A stretch of 21,732 nucleotides of DNA from a virus. A model generated the notes under the pieces. That model made no database searches. It was not told the DNA's origin and saw only the letters and a list, made by a program, of their open reading frames with translations. Shown piece after piece: positions 10,701-21,732 of the stretch. Numbering within the stretch: the stretch's first letter is position 1; every line of letters begins with the position of its first letter. The stretch is from positions 1-21,732 of the IMG/VR virus record IMGVR_UViG_3300047557_002715. The stretch is one strand, 5' to 3'. A program made the translations under genes and the position numbers.

Positions 10701-13700
10701 CTTATTGGTCAAAATAATGATATTAGAGCATCAGATACTTTAGATTTTAGACCAAGAGTTTCGGTGTTTAATGGTTCTTCATCTTCACCATTTGACTTTT
10801 TCTCAAGAACATTTGTAAATGAACCTAAGATTATTTTATCACCTAATGAGAGTTCTTTAGTTGGTTATGATTTTTACTTAGGAAGAATAGATAAACTTTA
10901 TTTAAATAAACTTGGAGAATTTGTTGTTTCTCAAGGTGTCCCTTCAATTGATCCAAAATCTCCAACTAAACCCGATGATGTAATGGAAATAGCGACTATT
11001 ACATTACCACCATATCTCTATAATCCAAAAGATTCAAGAGTTTCTCTTGCAGATAATAGAAGATATACAATGAGAGATATTGGGAGAATTGAAGATAGAG
11101 TTGAAACGTTAGAAAGAGTAACATCTCTAAGTTTATTAGAATTAAAAACAGAAACATTACAAGTACAAGATGCTCAGGGTTTGAATAGATTTAAGAGTGG
11201 ATTCTTTGTAGATGATTTTAAAAATTCAGATTTATTTAATACTACACTGTCTACTATAGAAGTTGATACTGATAATAATGAATTAAGACCTAGAATTTCA
11301 AAAAATAGTATTGAATTAAAACCAGTTTCTTTAGAAAATATTACTGATGAAAATTTCAATTCAAGTGTAAATTTTGACTTATTTGATTCAAACACACAAA
11401 AAACAGGTGATGTAATTACACTAAAATATAATTCTGTTGGTTGGATAGAACAAACATTTGCAACAAAAGTTGAAAATGTTAATCCGTTTAAAGTTGTATC
11501 TTATAGTGGTACTATTAAGTTAAATCCATCTAGTGATAGTTGGGTAAGAACTGTAAGATTAGAGGATGTTAATATTAATCAAGAAAATTCGGTTTGGTTG
11601 AGAGCTACAGGAAGATTTGAAGTTACAGGTAGAACCACAACTACCACTACACAAGATAGAGTGGTTGCTAGCGGTATAGAACTTTATATGAGATCCAGAA
11701 ATACTGGATTTACTGCTGTAAACTTAAAGCCTTTAACAAGATTTTATCAATTTTTAGATGGAAATAGTGGAGTAGATTTTGTTCCAAAACTTGTTGAAAT
11801 TTCAAATAGTTCAACCTTACAAAATTATGGATCTTCATCAGCATTTGTGGTTGGAGAAACTGTAATTGGATCTTTTGGAGGTTCTAATTTAATTACTTTT
11901 AGAGTAGCAAAATCTAATCATAAAGAAGGATCTTTCAATAATCCATCTATAACATACACAACAAACCCATATGTTACATCAGAAACAATACCAGAATCTT
12001 ACAGTGCATCATCAAAAACTTTGAATATTGATATAGATTCCTTATGCCTTGAAGCTCAGGGATTATATTCTGGTTATTTAACTGTTGGTATGAAATTAGT
12101 TGGACAAACTAGTGGATCTGTTGCTTATGTAAAAGATTTAAGACTAATTAGTGATGTTAATGGATTCCTTTCCGGAGCATTCTTCTTAAGAGATCCATTA
12201 AAAAATCCACCACCACCAGTAAGAATATCAACCGGATCAAAAGTTTATAAACTAAATTCAAGTGCATCTAATGAAACTCCTATTGCGGGAAGTAACCTTA
12301 TTTCTTCAGCTGAAACAATTTACAAATCAGAGGGTTCTTGGGAAGAGAGGCAGCGAACTGTAACAACAAGCACAACTGTATATTATGTTGATCCTTTAGC
12401 GCAGTCTTTTACTGTTGGTGGAGTTTCTGAAGAAACAAATGGAAATAATCCAAATGAAGACGCTAATGGAGCATTTTTAACTGCTGTTGATCTATTTTTT
12501 GCAAATAAAGATCCAAATAATGCACCTTTAACAGTTGAAGTTAGAACGGTTGAACTTGGAACACCGACAAGAACAATTGTAGGGAATCCAGTAACTTTAA
12601 GGCCAAGTGACATCAATGTTTCATCAAATGCTTCTGTTGCAACAAAAGTTACATTTGATTATCCGATTTATCTTGAACCTAATTTAGAATATGCAATTGT
12701 TTTACTTGCACCTCAGTCAGATCAATACGAAGTATGGATTGCAGAGATGGGAGAAAAGACAATTGAAACTAAAAATTTACCAGATTCTCAAGCAGTAAGG
12801 TACACCAGACAGTTTGCTATTGGAAGTTTGTTCAAATCTCAAAATGGATCTATTTGGACAGCAAATCAATATCAAGATTTGAAATTTAAGTTATATAAAG
12901 CTAAGTTCAATTTAAGTAATGGTAGTGTATTATTCCATAATCCAACACTAAATCAAAGTAACGGATATGTACCTACTTTGCAGACAAATCCAATTACTAT
13001 TTTACCTAAAAGGGTTAATATTGGAATTACAACTTTAACAAATGCATCAATAATTGGCATACTAACAACAGGAAGAAAAATATCAACACAACAATCTCCA
13101 TATGTTCATGGATATGTTGTGGGTACTGGAAGTTCTGCAACTTCAGTTGGAATAACTACCGGCGGATTTAATTATTCTACAGGAACAGTTGAAACTTATA
13201 ATGTCACTGGAAATGGAAGTGGTTTAAAATTAAATATTACCACATCAAATGGGGTGATAACTGGCGCTGTAGTAACGCCAGAATACCCTGGAAAGGGTTA
13301 TAACGTAGGTGATACTGTTGGAATTGTCACATCTTCAGTATCTCCTGTTGGAGGAGATAATGCGCGTATCACAATTACTGGAATTGCAAATGGAATTGAT
13401 ACAATATACTTATCAAATGTTCAGGGTACATTTGATGTAGGTGAAAGTTTATCTTACTATGATAACTCAGGTAATTTAGTATCTTTAGCAAATACTACTA
13501 TTTTAACATCAACTCCAGTAGGTGGTGTTTACTCCGGAAACTTCTTTAAAGTGAATCATTATGAGCATGGCATGTATTCTACAGCAAATAAAGTATCCAT
13601 ACAGAATGTAGAGAGTGATCTGCAAAAAGTTTTATTATCTTCTCCAGTATTATCATCAAACTCTACAATAAGTGTTGCATCTACATCAATCTTCAGTACA

Positions 13701-16155: not shown

Positions 16156-16998
16156 ATGGCAAAACCATCAACAAGACAAGAATTAATTGATTATTGTTTG
16201 AGAAAACTAGGAGCTCCTGTCTTAGAAATTAATGTTTCAGATGAGCAGATAGATGATTTAGTAGATGATGCTCTTCAAGTTTATAATGACCGCCATTTTG
16301 ATGGTGTTGAAAGGATGTATTTAAAATATAAAATTACAGAACAAGATATAAACAGAGGCAAGGCAAGGGGACCAAATGGAGTTGGAATTGTAACAACCAC
16401 CGGATCTTCAAATATTTCTGGAGTGGGAACTACCACATTTAATTTTTATGAAACTTCTAATTATATTCAAGTACCAGATACAATAATTGGTATAGAAAAA
16501 ATTTTTAAATTTGATACCAGTTCTATATCTGCAGGAATGTGGAGTATTAAATATCAATTATTTTTAAACGATTTATATTATTTCAATTCTGTGGAACTTT
16601 TACAGTATGCAATGGTAAAAACATATTTGGAAGATATTGATTTCTTACTATCTACAGATAAACAGATTAGATTTAATAAGAGACAAAACAGACTATATTT
16701 AGATATTGATTGGAATGCCCAGGGTAAAGATACATTTATTATAATTGATTGCTATAGAATTTTAGATCCTAATGATTTTACAAAAGTCTATAACGATCTT
16801 TTTGTGAAAAAATATTTAACTGCTTTAATTAAGAGACAATGGGGACAAAATCTCATAAAATTTAGGGGAGTTAAACTTCCTGGAGGTATTGAATTGAATG
16901 GTAGAGAAATATATGAAGATGGTCAAAGAGAAATAGATAAATTGATGGAAAGAATGTCTATGGATTACGAACTACCACCTTACGATTTTATTGGATAA
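16156..16998 (+). CDS. 13: Neck protein gp13
   Basis: A component of the head-tail connector (neck) that is added to the filled head with gp14 so that the tail can attach. The protein has 280 residues against 309 in T4. The N-terminal helix region, TRQELIDYCLRKLGAPVLEI followed by VSDEQIDDLVDDALQVY and RHFDG (to residue 50), is the family hallmark. The C-terminal region has KYLTALIKRQWGQNL (219-233), FRGVKLPGGIELNGREIYED (236-255) and ends ELPPYDFIG, also typical. A Gly/Thr-rich loop at about 72-95 (GVGIVTTTGSSNISGVGTTT) resembles the GIGTT segments of the giant structural proteins here. A GGAGG (16140-16144) precedes the ATG by 11 bases. The stop overlaps the gp14 start in TAATG. Confidence 0.93.
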   Translation: MAKPSTRQELIDYCLRKLGAPVLEINVSDEQIDDLVDDALQVYNDRHFDGVERMYLKYKITEQDINRGKARGPNGVGIVTTTGSSNISGVGTTTFNFYETSNYIQVPDTIIGIEKIFKFDTSSISAGMWSIKYQLFLNDLYYFNSVELLQYAMVKTYLEDIDFLLSTDKQIRFNKRQNRLYLDIDWNAQGKDTFIIIDCYRILDPNDFTKVYNDLFVKKYLTALIKRQWGQNLIKFRGVKLPGGIELNGREIYEDGQREIDKLMERMSMDYELPPYDFIG

Positions 16999-18386
16999 TG
17001 GCACTAAATCCGTTTTTTTTACAAGGATCACCAAATGAACAAAGACTTGTTCAGGAATTAATTAATGAACAACTTAAAATTTTTGGTGTAGAAGTAATTT
17101 ACATTCCAAGAAAATTTGTTAGAAAAGAGACAATATTAAAAGAAATTTCTTCATCAAAATTTGATGATAATTTTGCAATAGAAGCATATATAAACAACTA
17201 TGATGGTTACACTGGTCAGGGAGATATTTTAACGAAATTTGGAGTTAGTTTAAAAGATGAACTTAGTCTAGTAATTTCAAGAGAAAGATACGAGGATTTT
17301 ATCATCCCCCTTCTTGGAGAAGTTGATGAAGAACTTGAGTTAATATCAAGACCTAGAGAAGGAGATTTGGTTTATTTTCCTCTTGGACAAAGATTATTTG
17401 AAGTGAAATTTGTTGAACATGAAAGTTCATTTTATCAATTAGGAAAGTTATATGTTTACGAGTTAAAATGTGAACTTTTTGAATATGAAGATGAGGTACT
17501 TAATACTTCAATTGATGAAATTGATACTCAATTACAAGATGAAGGATATGTAATTTCTTTAAATATGTTAAGAACTGGAGAATTAGCAGCTGCCTTACCG
17601 TTCATTGGAACTGGTTATGTCAAAAATATTTATTTAAATAATGATGGTTACGGTTATATTTCAACACCAACAGTTTCAATTGAAACTGCACCTTCTGGTG
17701 GTACAAATGCCACTGCTGTTGCAATTACAACATCAATTGGTAGGGTTAGATCAATAAAAGAAATTTTAATAGTAAATCCAGGATCTGGTTATACAGTTGC
17801 ACCAGCAATCACTATAAATGGTGGTGGGGGAGTTGGTGCAGCTGCAACTTGTTCTATTGAAACTAATAGTAGTGGAGTTGTAAATATACAAATAATTAAC
17901 AAAGGATCTGGATATGTTAATCCACCTTTTATAGAATTTACAAATCCCCAAATTGGCACAGATTTAGCTGTGGGAGTAGGATCATTATCTGCAGATGGAA
18001 AACTTGAATCTATTTTAATTACAAATCCAGGATCTGGTTATGTAGTAGAACCAAATATCTTTATAGAACCACCACCTATTTCAACCGATACTGAAAATTA
18101 TAAATTTAATGAGATAGTAACTGGATCTAATTCTGGAACAACTGCAAGGGTAAAGTCTTGGAATGCAGGTACAAATGTTCTTAAAGTATCTATTATTAAA
18201 GACGTATCAACAAGGGGTTTTTATCCAGGAGAATCAATTATTGGATCTGAAACATTTGCACAATATACATTGTCTTCATACGATTCTTTCAACACATCCG
18301 ATAAATATAGTCAAAATAAAACAATTGAGCAAGAATCTGATCAGATTGTTGATTTCTCAGAGTCAAATCCATTTGGGACTTTCTAA
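16998..18386 (+). CDS. 14: Neck protein gp14 with a large repeat insertion
   Basis: Partner of gp13 in the neck. The protein has 462 residues against 256 in T4. The core matches T4 gp14: FGVEVIYIPRKFV (29-41), AYINNYDGYTG (63-73), FGVSLKDELSLVIS (81-94), PREGDLVYFP (119-128) and FEVKFVEHESSFYQLGK (134-150). The end (SFNTSDKYS to SNPFGTF) corresponds to the short T4 tail containing SFESSPFDNDF. The extra roughly 200 residues lie between core and tail. They consist of four GxGY beta repeats (Tyr at 220, 265, 306 and 348) followed by an SGTTARV...GESIIG module (about 367-418). The insertion is therefore internal and keeps both conserved ends. The start overlaps the gp13 stop, and the stop overlaps the gp15 start, both as TAATG, so translation is likely coupled. 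Confidence 0.92.
   Translation: MALNPFFLQGSPNEQRLVQELINEQLKIFGVEVIYIPRKFVRKETILKEISSSKFDDNFAIEAYINNYDGYTGQGDILTKFGVSLKDELSLVISRERYEDFIIPLLGEVDEELELISRPREGDLVYFPLGQRLFEVKFVEHESSFYQLGKLYVYELKCELFEYEDEVLNTSIDEIDTQLQDEGYVISLNMLRTGELAAALPFIGTGYVKNIYLNNDGYGYISTPTVSIETAPSGGTNATAVAITTSIGRVRSIKEILIVNPGSGYTVAPAITINGGGGVGAAATCSIETNSSGVVNIQIINKGSGYVNPPFIEFTNPQIGTDLAVGVGSLSADGKLESILITNPGSGYVVEPNIFIEPPPISTDTENYKFNEIVTGSNSGTTARVKSWNAGTNVLKVSIIKDVSTRGFYPGESIIGSETFAQYTLSSYDSFNTSDKYSQNKTIEQESDQIVDFSESNPFGTF
17610..18077 (+). repeat. Four tandem GxGY beta repeats inside gp14
   Basis: Protein repeats with cores DGYGY, PGSGY, KGSGY and PGSGY at gp14 residues 216-220, 261-265, 302-306 and 344-348, spaced 45, 41 and 42 residues apart. 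Each core follows hydrophobic-Asn (e.g. LIVN, QIIN, LITN) and is followed by a Pro-containing strand (STPTVSI, APAITI, NPPFIEF, EPNIFI). At DNA level the second and fourth copies share an identical 19-base stretch (17774-17792 and 18023-18041), so copies have recently duplicated or converted. Confidence 0.85.
18096..18251 (+). repeat. SGTTARV...GESIIG module inside gp14
   Basis: Residues about 367-418 of gp14 read as NEIVTGSNSGTTARV, a variable strand with VLKVSII, then FYPGESIIGSE. The same 'G..SG.TA.V ... L.V ... F..GE.I.G' pattern recurs in the 2394-residue structural protein (around 9163-9290 and 10312-10450), so this is a mobile protein module rather than part of the gp14 core. Confidence 0.65.
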
Positions 18387-19186
18387 TGTTAGGAACTTAC
18401 TACTATCACGAAATTATTAGAAGAACTGTAATTTCATTTGGAACCTTATTTAATGAAATTTATATAAGGCATAAAAATTCTTCAGGAACTGGAATAAGTG
18501 ACATGAAAGTTCCATTGGCATATGGACCTATACAAAAATTTCTTGCACGAGTAGAGCAACAGTCTGATTTAAATAAACCAATATCAATGACTTTGCCTAG
18601 ATTGTCATTTGAAATGACATCTATTCAATATGACCCAACAAGAAAAGCAAATATAACTCAATCATTTAAAGTTTTAGATTCAAATAATAATTTTAAAAAA
18701 GTATATTTGCCAGTTCCGTATAATATTGGATTTCAATTAAATTTAATGTCCAAAATACAAGATGATGCTTTACAAGTTGTAGAACAAATACTACCATTTT
18801 TCCAGCCTTCTTTTAATTTAACAATAGATCTTATTGATTCTATAGGAGAAAAAAAAGATATTCCTATTGTCTTAGATAGTGTATCATTCACTGATGACTA
18901 TGAAGGAGATTTTTCTACAAGAAGAATTTTAATTTATACATTTAATTTTACTGCAAAAAGTTACTTATTTGGACCTATTGCAGATACTACAGATGGACTT
19001 ATTAAAAAAGTTCAAGTTGATTACTATAGTGGCACTGACACTACTACAGCAAGAAGAGAAATGAGATATACGGTTACACCAGATCCAATTGATGCTAATC
19101 CTGATGATGATTTTGGATTTAATGAATCAATTGAAGTATTCTTTGATGGTAGAGAATATAGTCCAACTCAACAAAAAGATATTTAA
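18386..19186 (+). CDS. 15: Tail sheath stabiliser / tail completion protein gp15
   Basis: gp15 caps the finished tail, binds the last ring of sheath and tube, and forms the tail's interface with the neck. The protein has 266 residues against 272 in T4. Matching segments are the start MLGTYYYHEIIRR followed by LFNEIYIRH, the KVPLAYGP strand (T4 VPITYASK), LPRLSFEMTSIQYDP, the central DDALQVVEQILPFFQPSFNL (T4 DDMFQIVEQILPYFQPHFN), and STRRILIYTFNFTAKSYLFGP, followed by IADTTDGLIKK. The C-terminus is acidic (DANPDDDFGFNE). The start shares the TAATG with the gp14 stop and has no good Shine-Dalgarno of its own, which suggests translational coupling. It is six bases upstream of gp16. Confidence 0.95.
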   Translation: MLGTYYYHEIIRRTVISFGTLFNEIYIRHKNSSGTGISDMKVPLAYGPIQKFLARVEQQSDLNKPISMTLPRLSFEMTSIQYDPTRKANITQSFKVLDSNNNFKKVYLPVPYNIGFQLNLMSKIQDDALQVVEQILPFFQPSFNLTIDLIDSIGEKKDIPIVLDSVSFTDDYEGDFSTRRILIYTFNFTAKSYLFGPIADTTDGLIKKVQVDYYSGTDTTTARREMRYTVTPDPIDANPDDDFGFNESIEVFFDGREYSPTQQKDI

Positions 19187-19192
19187 ATTATT

Positions 19193-19630
19193 ATGAAAAG
19201 CAATTATGATAAATTAGATGAATCTTTTAATATAGGAAGTAGTATTATTAAATCTGATGAAAATCTAGATTCTAATGAGTTAGATATAACTCCATTAAAA
19301 AATGATGTAAGTCAGGATATTGAAAAAGATTATGCATATACAAGATCTCATTTATATTCATTAATAGAAAAAGGTCAAGAAGCAATCAATGGAATTATGG
19401 AAATTGCTTCTGAAGGTGGTAGTCCAAGAGCATATGAAGTTGCAGGACAACTTATAAAAAATGTCAGCGATGTTACTGATAAATTAATAGATCTACAAAA
19501 GAAACTTAAAGACGTTGAGGAAACTACATCTAAAACAACTAACAATACAACAAATAACGCAATTTTTGTTGGATCAACTTCAGAATTATCAAAAATATTA
19601 AAGCAAGGTTTTCTAAATAATAAGGAGTAA
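19193..19630 (+). CDS. 16: Terminase small subunit gp16
   Basis: The small terminase subunit forms a ring that regulates the gp17 packaging motor and selects phage DNA. The protein has 145 residues against 164 in T4. The N-terminal acidic region leads into QDIEKDYAYTRSHLYSLIEK, matching T4 LEDDYGVVRRNMHFQQQM. The central helical segment GSPRAYEVAGQLIKNVSDVT followed by DKLIDLQKKLKDVE corresponds to the T4 oligomerisation coiled coil starting DSPRHMEVFATLMGQM. The end contains NNAIFVGSTSELSKIL, matching T4 NATVFVGSPTDLL. All parts are present and in order, so it appears intact. The gene that normally follows, gp17, is not here. Confidence 0.93.
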   Translation: MKSNYDKLDESFNIGSSIIKSDENLDSNELDITPLKNDVSQDIEKDYAYTRSHLYSLIEKGQEAINGIMEIASEGGSPRAYEVAGQLIKNVSDVTDKLIDLQKKLKDVEETTSKTTNNTTNNAIFVGSTSELSKILKQGFLNNKE

Positions 19631-19642
19631 AATCTTACATTA

Positions 19643-21619
19643 ATGTCTTGGTCAAAGGATTATAAAAAGTCAATAGACTGTGATAATCCTAAGGGATTTT
19701 CTCAACGTGCTCATTGCGATGCACGTAAAAAAAGAGAAAGAGGTGAAAAAACAAAATCAAAATCTCCTTTTAATGAAATGCACGAATTAAAATCTCATAG
19801 AACAGTTGAAAAAATTGCAAAAAAACATCGTTTGGAAGTTTCATTTGTAAAAAATCAACTAGAGATGGGAGTCCCAATCGAGCATGAACATACAAGAGAC
19901 AAAGATTTAGCAACTGACATTGCTCTTCAACATCTTGATGAAATTCCAGATTATTATACTCGTTTGAAAAAAATGGAAGCAGATGCTAAAAAGCACCATA
20001 AAAAATTTAAAGATGTTAAAGAAAATTATGATTACAATAATAAAGCAGTAATTGAACTTGAATCAAAATTGAAAAAACTAAATGACATTTCTTATGATTC
20101 AATAGATAATTTAATGCGTAAAATTATGAAAAGACATGATATGACTGCAAAAGAACTGCATAATGCTTTTGTGAAAAAACATGATAAAACTCCAGATGAT
20201 TGGATTAAGCAAAAAATCGATGAAGGAACTTTACATCATTGGTTTAAGGGTTCTAAATCTAAAGATGGAAAACCAGGATGGGTTCAAGCAGACGGTTCTC
20301 CATGTGCTAATGAACCGGGAGAAACTAAAACACCAAAATGTTTTAGTAGTGGTAGATTAAATGCATTGAAAAGAAAAGGTGATGAAGGAGAAGCACTGAT
20401 TAGATCAGCAATTCGTCGCAAACGTCAGAAAGATAAAGGACAACAAGAAAAAACTGGAGCAGCAAAACCAACAAATGTTCCAACCTTTGCTAAAGGTAAA
20501 AAAGATAAAAATTACGTAAAAGCAGAACCAGGAATTAAAGAAGCAATGGAAATTACCGAAGCACAAAAAGATAAACCAGGTAAAGGCAGTGGTAAAAAAG
20601 ATGCCTGTTATCATAAAGTAAAGTCAAGATATGATGTTTGGCCAAGTGCATATGCATCTGGAGCTTTGGTTAAGTGTCGTGAAGTTGGTGCAAAAAACTG
20701 GGGAACAAAATCAGAAGACTGTTGGGATGGTTATAAGCAAGAAGGTATGAAAAAGAAAGGTAAAAAATTAGTTCCAAATTGTGTACCAATAAAAGAAGAA
20801 GGAATGATTAGATATTGTCCAAAATGCCAAAAAAATGAAACTCGTTCAGAATGTAAATATGGAGTAAAGTTTTGGGATATGTATTCAATGCCAATTACTC
20901 TTGGGAAAAAATATACTCCAAACACTCCACATCCAGGAAATTTTCCAGAGTCTTATGATCATGAGCATTCAATGGCTCGTTCCGAACTTTCAACAATTAT
21001 TTCGGCAGCAAAAAGAATTCGTAAAAAAATGAAAGGTGAGGGAAATATTGAAGCATGGGTTCAATCCAAAATTACTAAAGCAGCAGATTATTTAGATTCT
21101 GCTGCTGATTATATTGATAGTGGTGAAATGAAAGAACAATCATTTGATATTACTCATACCGCTTCAGATGCTGCAAAAAGAAGAAGAGAAGCAAAGATTC
21201 AAAAACTAGCAGTTGGAGGAGCAACTCCAGGAGAACGTTCAGCAGCTTCATCCAAACTCAGTGGTCCATCTTTACCATTAATTAAAACTGCAGATTCTTA
21301 TGAACCAGAAGGTGACTTGATTGAATATTCAAATTGGAGAGTAGATTTTGGATTATCTGAAGATTGGCAAAAAGTCAATCGCCAAGATAAAACTGATGGA
21401 TTGAGTCAGAAAGCAGTTAACGCTTATCGTCGTGAAAATCCTGGTTCAAAACTACAAACTGCTGTAACCGAAAAGAACCCAGAAGGTAAAAGAGCAAAAC
21501 GTCGTGCTTCATTTTGCAGTCGTATGTCCGGAATGAAGTCTAAACTTACATCAGCAAAAACTGCAAGAGATCCAGATTCAAGAATTAACAAAGCACTTCG
21601 TCGTTGGAACTGCAACTAA
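19643..21619 (+). CDS. Lys/Arg- and Cys-rich mosaic protein (DUF5661/DUF5872/DUF6321-like modules), possible head-internal protein
   Basis: The protein has 658 residues and is highly basic. Modules in order: an N-terminal CDNPKGFSQRAHC motif (13-25); a segment like DUF5661 (about 74-112: MGVPIEHEHT, ALQHLDEIPDYYTRLKKME); DDWIKQKIDEGTLHHWFKGS with C221/C233; a DUF5872-like module (320-354: KKDACYHKVKSRYDVWPSAY, ending C345); a C360/C380 module (CWDGYKQEG, LVPNC); YCPKC (391-395) with C404; a helical AWVQSKITKAADYLDSAADY segment (471-490); and a DUF6321-like C-terminus (about 585-658) ending NKALRRWNC. The DUF names are from memory. It has 13 Cys, far denser than the structural proteins, and about 21 CGT/CGC Arg codons. 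AAGGAG (19622-19627) lies 15 bases before the ATG, unusually far. Function is unknown. The location beside gp16 suggests a head or packaging role. Confidence 0.75.
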   Translation: MSWSKDYKKSIDCDNPKGFSQRAHCDARKKRERGEKTKSKSPFNEMHELKSHRTVEKIAKKHRLEVSFVKNQLEMGVPIEHEHTRDKDLATDIALQHLDEIPDYYTRLKKMEADAKKHHKKFKDVKENYDYNNKAVIELESKLKKLNDISYDSIDNLMRKIMKRHDMTAKELHNAFVKKHDKTPDDWIKQKIDEGTLHHWFKGSKSKDGKPGWVQADGSPCANEPGETKTPKCFSSGRLNALKRKGDEGEALIRSAIRRKRQKDKGQQEKTGAAKPTNVPTFAKGKKDKNYVKAEPGIKEAMEITEAQKDKPGKGSGKKDACYHKVKSRYDVWPSAYASGALVKCREVGAKNWGTKSEDCWDGYKQEGMKKKGKKLVPNCVPIKEEGMIRYCPKCQKNETRSECKYGVKFWDMYSMPITLGKKYTPNTPHPGNFPESYDHEHSMARSELSTIISAAKRIRKKMKGEGNIEAWVQSKITKAADYLDSAADYIDSGEMKEQSFDITHTASDAAKRRREAKIQKLAVGGATPGERSAASSKLSGPSLPLIKTADSYEPEGDLIEYSNWRVDFGLSEDWQKVNRQDKTDGLSQKAVNAYRRENPGSKLQTAVTEKNPEGKRAKRRASFCSRMSGMKSKLTSAKTARDPDSRINKALRRWNCN

Positions 21620-21620
21620 A

Positions 21621-21732
21621 ATGAAATCATTTCAACAATTTCTTTCAGAAAGTATTAATATTGCAGGAGATTTTAATGGAAATCTCTATATGAACTCACC
21701 ACAACCAGAAACTACTAGAGAGTCTTTTCTTG
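21621..21732 (+). CDS. Start of a gene with a capsid-targeting-like N-terminus (3' end outside window)
   Basis: An ATG one base after the previous stop opens a frame that runs off the window (37 codons seen). It begins MKSFQQFLSES, then INIAGDFNGNLYMNSPQPE. The first ten residues resemble the T4 capsid-targeting sequence MKTYQEFIAE of the internal proteins (IPI-IPIII, Alt), which is cut by the gp21 prohead protease after 'L/I-x-E'. Here LSE followed by Ser would fit that rule. I also recall an 'NIAGDFNGNLYMNS' type start from marine T4-like phages. There is no Shine-Dalgarno, so translation probably depends on the upstream gene. Identity of the full protein cannot be told. Confidence 0.7.
   Translation, partial: MKSFQQFLSESINIAGDFNGNLYMNSPQPETTRESFL

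Follow-up and report, generated by a model that had tools for sequence, protein, structure and literature searches.

The window analyzed here is an IMG/VR virus record (IMGVR_UViG_3300047557_002715) that was studied at its full length of 21,732 bases. Judged by gene content and profile matches, it comes from the late-gene region of a T4-like cyanophage. Toward its 3' end, all on the plus strand, lie genes whose products match profiles of a gp13-like head-tail adaptor, a gp14-like head closure protein and a gp15-like tail sheath stabilizer (positions 16156 to 19186), followed by the small terminase subunit gp16 (19193 to 19630; phrog_445, E = 8e-52) and a 658-amino-acid protein with a profile match to phrog_727 (19643 to 21619). 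A baseplate wedge gene is also found among the genes 5' of the last gene, which starts with the ATG at 21621, one base past the stop codon of its neighbor (21617 to 21619), and whose frame is open up to the end of the fragment (21621 to 21732, plus strand). Since the gp16 gene is at 19193 to 19630, the last gene sits in the late head/packaging block.

Translation of positions 21621 to 21731 gave MKSFQQFLSESINIAGDFNGNLYMNSPQPETTRESFL. In a profile search, residues 1 to 36 aligned to positions 1 to 38 of 108 of phrog_1742 (E = 1e-12), a family whose function is annotated as unknown. The gene is truncated by the fragment end, but locus L002 contains an exact copy of the last 2000 bases of the fragment and there the full gene encodes 102 amino acids. 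The 37-amino-acid piece matched 130 of 50,697 phage records at E values of up to 10, in 127 cases over at least 80% of its length, and all 130 records are named Synechococcus, Prochlorococcus or cyanophage. The complete gene in L002 together with these matches demonstrates that the gene is real.

A preliminary description of this DNA had likened the first ten residues, MKSFQQFLSE (21621 to 21650, plus strand), to the T4 capsid-targeting peptide MKTYQEFIAE, including the L-x-E end. Indeed, five of the ten residues are identical and the other five are conservative replacements, with a BLOSUM62 score of 35 compared to a self score of 51. The peptide, referred to here as the tag, occupies the extreme N terminus with its approximately ten residues; the aromatic residues F4 and F7 are the counterparts of the residues used for targeting in T4, and L8-S9-E10 has the L/I-x-E form of the gp21 processing site.

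Conservation of the tag in two gene families

In four annotated relatives, the phrog_1742 gene is preceded by a large gene, hypothetical or structural, and followed by another late gene. In S-SRM01, an endonuclease gene is placed between the large gene and the phrog_1742 gene, and gp17 and gp18 are encoded downstream in three of these relatives. To sample the family independently of the tag, 80 loci were fetched via the neighboring 658-amino-acid gene. An intact phrog_1742 body was present in 61 of them, and 60 of these 61 carried the tag, with F or Y at position 4 and F at position 7 in 60 of 61. The family alignment shows no exception at F7 and E10 and hardly any at F4. Two members, L317 and L328, are nearly the same over most of the protein, and L317 keeps the tag, but the segment directly after the tag is different and longer in L317; thus, this segment can be swapped within one family, which speaks for modularity. 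A homologue without a tag (MELPLMENLNISGDFNG...) is encoded in L074 in a frame starting near position 11703 and provides a natural control for function. Furthermore, Sf-FS3 (PV340856.1, 111880 to 112128) encodes a tagged protein of 82 amino acids before the large terminase subunit, with a YPGA-type body that resembles phrog_1742 by eye.

The roles of the individual residues are known from T4. According to the accessible text of PMC9026906, amber mutagenesis of IPIII assigned targeting mainly to residues 4 and 7 and processing to residues 8 and 10. A second tag-independent sample was obtained by fetching loci with the catalytic region of NMN adenylyltransferase (NMNAT) alone, and the best 80 of 274 were analyzed. 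The tag was at the start of 79 of these 80, and in the eight commonest cases it was located 113 to 134 residues upstream of the catalytic region. The 80th locus starts with MKTFLQFVTE and departs from the pattern at V8 only. These best 80 of 274 are close relatives (73 to 96% identity). Nevertheless, the 79 tagged loci contained 29 distinct 10-mers in which positions 3, 5 and 9 were variable, whereas position 4 was F in 27 and Y in 2, position 7 was F, position 8 was I in 21 and L in 8, and position 10 was E; the search pattern permits F, L or Y at position 4 and I, L, M or F at position 8 and requires F7 and E10. The conserved columns are those with an experimentally assigned role in T4, and this is the strongest single argument for a targeting signal.

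The tag is more frequent than expected by chance

Candidate ATG starts were scored against the T4 peptide alone in 14 genomes (ten T4-like cyano- and pelagiphages, T4, RB49, phiM12 and SPO1), with a threshold of at least 25 and permutation of residues 2 to 10 as the null. The ten cyano- and pelagiphage genomes had 26 starts at or above 25, compared to approximately 1.2 by permutation, and 22 of the 26 were the first ATG of their frame. S-SRM01 had nine such candidate starts, among them two near-identical paralogues and one that is not the first ATG. T4 itself had five (null, 0.2) and RB49 had one, and no start reached 25 in phiM12 or SPO1. The core pattern was found right behind the start methionine in 20 cases, internally in 10 and near the C terminus in 1 in the 14 genomes. 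Within the ten cyano- and pelagiphages, S-PM2 and P-HM1 had no start at or above 25, and a strict DNA pattern had no match in RB49 and KVP40; thus, not all T4-like phages have the tag.

The strict DNA pattern matched 19 times in 18 records, whereas the reversed pattern had no match. When IMG/VR was scanned with three tag patterns, at least 120, at least 120 and 106 stretches were found; codon-permuted controls of the second pattern, with the same codons in another order, gave 0 and 1 stretches. A looser MKT-type control pattern also gave at least 120 stretches, and 102 of 108 among the matches listed were at starts of open reading frames (ORFs). Therefore, location at an ORF start alone is no evidence. 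The gene neighborhood did distinguish the two: among the matches listed, T4-superfamily genes were beside 164 of 265 tagged loci but only 29 of 120 control loci (P = 4e-12), and with structural genes only the numbers were 60 of 265 and 15 of 120 (P = 0.03). The tag exceeds chance expectation.

The tag precedes many different bodies

The pieces fetched in the survey contained 362 tag matches, of which 12 under 40 amino acids were dropped; merging of identical proteins among the 350 kept left 324 unique proteins among the matches listed. Their bodies (residue 13 onward) fell into 110 BLASTP clusters with 70 singletons, which is a maximum because homologues that are short or diverged fall apart at the E value of 1e-3. 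NMNAT formed the largest cluster (71 of the 324 among the matches listed), and the second had 32 members. Thirty representatives of the 110 clusters were picked by hand for a Pfam search; 10 of them had a match at an E value of 0.01, and 6 were above the Pfam cutoffs (AAA_33/zeta toxin, glucosaminidase, DPBB, HNH, DUF6267 and CTP_transf_like). Matches to ART-PolyVal, Acid_phosphat_B, FapA and PheRS_DBD3 were below the cutoff and were not relied on. A PHROGs search with 10 tagged proteins returned mostly unknowns, and PADLOC gave a single weak match for eight tagged proteins, which was not relied on either. Two or more distinct tagged proteins, and up to five, were encoded in 43 of 265 tagged loci among the matches listed. 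This also applies to G003, the contig with the tail of the fragment, which encodes the phrog_1742 protein and an NMNAT starting with MKSFIQFISE.

One tagged family has 12 members, 11 of which were aligned, and has a predicted fold of the ADP-ribosyltransferase (ART) type. The top PDB matches of the model were tankyrase/PARP and ExoA-type ART domains, with E values of 5e-4 and up, a Foldseek probability of approximately 1 and a TM score of approximately 0.4, at moderate model confidence (pLDDT of 65). In L305 (962 to 1504) and its relatives, H21 and T23 are invariant and V49-Y50 nearly so. These proteins are candidates for injected ADP-ribosyltransferases.

A second module (KRLGLVGDGHGGWY...G...AKT...G.L.F) follows the tag of NMNAT, for example, in S-SRM01 (L099, 32429 to 33748), and is also present in gp12, the Cas9-like nuclease found in S-CREM2 virions (W17, 10313 to 7704, minus strand). 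The kinase gp14 of S-CREM2 resembles it by eye only. The module is possibly another packaging or cargo domain. In T4, gp61.1 (NC_000866, 19130 to 18966, minus strand), a hypothetical protein of 54 amino acids, starts with MKTFKEFIKED, close to the tag, which makes it a candidate for an overlooked T4 internal protein.

Tagged proteins in virions

For S-CREM2, 52 virion proteins are given in Table 3 of PMC10665884, and 50 of them could be used; two did not map to the ORF calls and were left out. On the basis of this table, a relaxed pattern found the tag on 5 of the 50 virion ORFs compared to 0 of 166 others (Fisher P = 5.7e-4), but this pattern was set after the virion N termini had been seen, and the strict pattern keeps only gp6 and gp154. 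The five tagged proteins of the table are the SAM hydrolase gp6 (MKDFDSFLEE), gp13 (MKDLHSFLTE), the kinase gp14 (MKRFDAFLTE, with a GTG start), gp136 (MQTFSMFFSE) and the NMNAT gp154 (MKNFSSFLTE). The Cas9-like nuclease gp12, also listed there, has LRFASFMAEA at residues 17 to 26 and was left out of the tagged count.

In S-SCSM1, the virion label was counted on 48 coding sequences of the record, compared to 45 given in the accessible text of the paper. The tag was on 1 of these 48 and on 1 of 234 other ORFs, which is not significant alone (P = 0.31), and the tagged virion protein is an NMNAT. Pooling of S-CREM2 and S-SCSM1, with the virion proteins as listed in these sources, gave 6 of 98 virion ORFs and 1 of 400 nonvirion ORFs with the tag (P = 3e-4). 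The NMNAT of S-SZBM1 (MRFRQFIIEA) is among the 30 virion proteins reported for that phage, and SSZBM1_192 (MKTFKQYITE) is not among these 30. Hence, the earlier idea that the peptide could serve as a search tag for injected proteins worked in practice: it marks NMNAT, a SAM hydrolase, a kinase and two unknowns in S-CREM2 virions and NMNAT in two more phages. According to PMC3037559, the NMNAT family T4-GC190 is represented in S-SM1 virions, and the S-PM2 member was not detected in S-PM2 virions (citing Clokie 2008). The S-SM2 member of the family is tagged and the S-PM2 member is not; the contrast between S-SM1 and S-PM2 is compatible with a link between tag and virion but confounded by sensitivity. 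A 69-amino-acid virion protein of S-SCSM1, SSCSM1_93 (91626 to 91835), ends with RTFKEFLEYIE, a tag-like motif at the C terminus.

The phrog_1742 protein itself behaved differently. Its homologue SSCSM1_30 is not labeled as a virion protein in S-SCSM1, whereas the products of both neighboring genes are, and SSZBM1_191 is not among the 30 S-SZBM1 virion proteins, whereas the flanking SSZBM1_190 is. Within the lists available for S-SCSM1 and S-SZBM1, the two gene-bearing phages that were compared, the product was thus reported in neither. Tryptic peptides of 7 to 30 amino acids number two for the S-SCSM1 homologue and six for the S-SZBM1 homologue, and with six usable peptides, the absence of the latter carries weight. 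The preliminary reading is therefore supported in one part, that a targeting signal is very probably present and marks virion proteins. As for the tagged protein itself, absence from capsids had been named there as a refutation, and the homologues missing from these two proteomes touch on that point.

The body of the phrog_1742 protein

An AlphaFold2 model of the L002 copy has a low-confidence stretch up to approximately residue 33 and a predicted beta-beta-alpha-beta core from residue 34 to 80 with a pLDDT near 90. Besides a family member, the matches among viral models included DUF6321 proteins and a 517-amino-acid virion protein of S-SCSM1 (E = 4e-3). A profile of the core found the same domain in large proteins, namely, in L473 (E = 6e-7) and in SSCSM1_29 (E = 0.017). 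SSCSM1_29 is the homologue of the 658-amino-acid neighbor in the fragment (39% identity; phrog_727, E = 1e-126) and is labeled as a virion protein; thus, the body is a domain that is otherwise carried by a virion protein. The phrog_727 copy of the fragment itself had no match to the core profile. Among weak PDB matches, T7 Gp2 and the epsilon subunit of RNA polymerase recurred near the top (E = 0.15 to 0.42). T7 Gp2 was the best Foldseek match (E = 0.15; VIA Z of 4.7, rmsd of 2.3 over 49 residues) but was tied with unrelated chains, and a Gp2/epsilon fold of the modeled body is speculative. When the family profile was run against PDB sequences, it gave one match at chance level (E = 0.19), which was discarded.

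Protease and scaffold of the relatives

A T4-type signal would need a scaffolding core and a prohead protease. The fragment does not extend to those genes, and the evidence on gp21 and gp22 is from relatives. Proteins of both types are annotated in S-RIM8, S-SCSM1, S-CREM2 and S-SZBM1; in S-SRM01, gp22 is annotated and a gp21-like protein, alike in sequence, has another name. T4 gp23 loses a propeptide of 65 residues, according to the accessible text of PMC9026906, and near that position, at residues 52 to 58, the gp23 propeptide of four of the five cyanophages checked has one LxE|A site; the fifth has LSE|T.

In nine of the ten cyano- and pelagiphage genomes, the prohead protease ends with F-x-x-F-[LIM] and a few residues, spaced like residues 4, 7 and 8 of the tag; examples are the gp21-type proteases of L099 (2234 to 2884) and L100 (1429 to 2073), and those of P-HM1 and S-CREM2 deviate from this ending. 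Perhaps this motif is the protease's own core-binding peptide. The numbers of C-terminal F-x-x-F-L motifs were too small to use.

Discussion

MKSFQQFLSE is very probably a T4-type capsid targeting sequence. By analogy to T4, the F4/F7 aromatic pair would dock the protein on a gp22-type scaffolding core during prohead assembly. After closure of the shell, a gp21-type protease would cut after L-S-E (E10), and the mature protein, residues 11 to 102, would be freed inside the head, packaged with the DNA and ejected with it into the host at infection. The same signal would load other cargo, such as NMNAT. Docking, cutting and ejection are all inferred from T4, and the phrog_1742 protein, judged by its sequence, is a candidate for head-delivered cargo. 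Taken as a whole, a signal of the T4 type that loads this protein and other cargo into the head is the best explanation and one that we regard as likely.

The peptide might also target the prohead core in a protein that is not injected but is an assembly factor of the core or scaffold type, which is degraded or leaves the head. Such a protein would be absent from virion proteomes, as were the homologues in the available lists of S-SCSM1 and S-SZBM1, in which products of neighboring genes are present. Moreover, the gene lies within the head/packaging block, and in T4 the proteins of the core are for the most part cleaved by gp21 and lost, as stated in PMC9026906. On the other hand, a protein detected in the virions of S-SCSM1 contains the core domain as well, and other tagged proteins are retained in the virions of the proteomes at hand. 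We consider an assembly factor unlikely.

Alternatively, the resemblance could reflect a common amphipathic N-terminal helix without targeting function. The motif is short, and the looser MKT control was frequent too (at least 120 stretches; ORF starts in 102 of 108 among the matches listed). However, codon-permuted patterns gave 0 and 1 stretches compared to at least 120, the conserved columns are those with a role in T4, the tag is associated with the listed virion proteins of S-CREM2, and T4-superfamily genes are beside 164 of 265 tagged compared to 29 of 120 control loci among the matches listed. A helix that arose by chance was rejected in view of the permuted controls and the virion association, and a common helix without targeting function is very improbable. 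Slightly more improbable still is a tag that was inherited with a few vertical gene families and is not portable. NMNAT and the second cluster do make up 71 and 32 of the 324 unique tagged proteins among the matches listed, but the bodies form 110 BLAST clusters with 70 singletons among the same matches, unrelated Pfam families and folds follow the tag, and the segment behind it was swapped inside phrog_1742.

With a T4-type targeting signal as the preferred reading, a broader picture can be drawn, to which we give an even chance: T4-like cyanophages and their aquatic relatives might share one portable N-terminal code of ten residues, which the prohead core and the gp21 protease would both recognize, and with it preload a large and fast-changing arsenal of injected proteins (NMNAT, SAM hydrolase, kinases, ADP-ribosyltransferases, P-loop and HAD-like enzymes and many unknowns). 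The product of the phrog_1742 gene would belong to this cargo and would perhaps bind the RNA polymerase of the host in the manner of Gp2.

The virion proteomes of cyanophages, in the lists available, contain enzymes such as NMNAT, and the tag marks such proteins. Whether these enzymes are packaged or carried over was left undecided by the authors in the accessible parts of PMC9602691 and PMC10665884. With the tag on only 1 of 400 nonvirion ORFs of S-CREM2 and S-SCSM1 as defined by their lists, packaging versus carryover becomes directly testable. Furthermore, the tag yields a list of candidate injected effectors, mostly of unannotated function, from sequence alone, which suggests a simple means of listing what these viruses inject.

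PMC9026906 had already raised the possibility that T4-like phages employ the capsid targeting sequence (CTS) to load a variety of proteins. A search of the open-access literature found no description of the tag in cyanophages and no paper containing the tag strings. The mechanism is known from T4; judged by these searches, what is new is the occurrence of the tag in cyanophages, its agreement with virion proteomes and the variety of bodies behind it.

As in the CTS of T4 IPI, IPII and IPIII, described in the accessible text of PMC9026906, the tag is N-terminal, has approximately ten residues with K2, F/Y4, F7, I/L8 and E10, and would be cut at L/I-x-E. The predicted cut after E10 reads L-S-E|S in the phrog_1742 protein, with S at residue 11, unlike I-A-E|A in the two T4 proteins with MKTYQEFIAE. 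A T4 protein of 95 amino acids starts with MKTFKEF, a form found in 17 of the 324 unique tagged proteins from IMG/VR among the matches listed; this protein is apparently IPI, since 95 minus 19 is 76, the stated size of mature IPI. Unlike the T4 CTS cargo, which consists of small basic proteins, the tagged cargo here includes large enzymes such as NMNAT, SAM hydrolase and kinase. T4 Alt, an injected ADP-ribosyltransferase, has a likeness in the tagged 12-member family with the predicted ART-type fold, but these putative ART-type proteins are smaller than Alt and have a CTS-like N terminus. In the giant phage SPN3US, inner-head proteins have N-terminal propeptides that are cut by the prohead protease and were inferred to target the head; several have 124 to 127 residues and one has 20, compared to 10 in the tag (accessible text of PMC5694885). 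The idea of effectors such as ARTs that are shipped in the head is also shared with polyvalent and MuF-fused effectors, as described in the accessible part of PMC9503650. There, packaging was inferred from fusions and gene neighborhood, whereas here it is suggested by a short shared tag.
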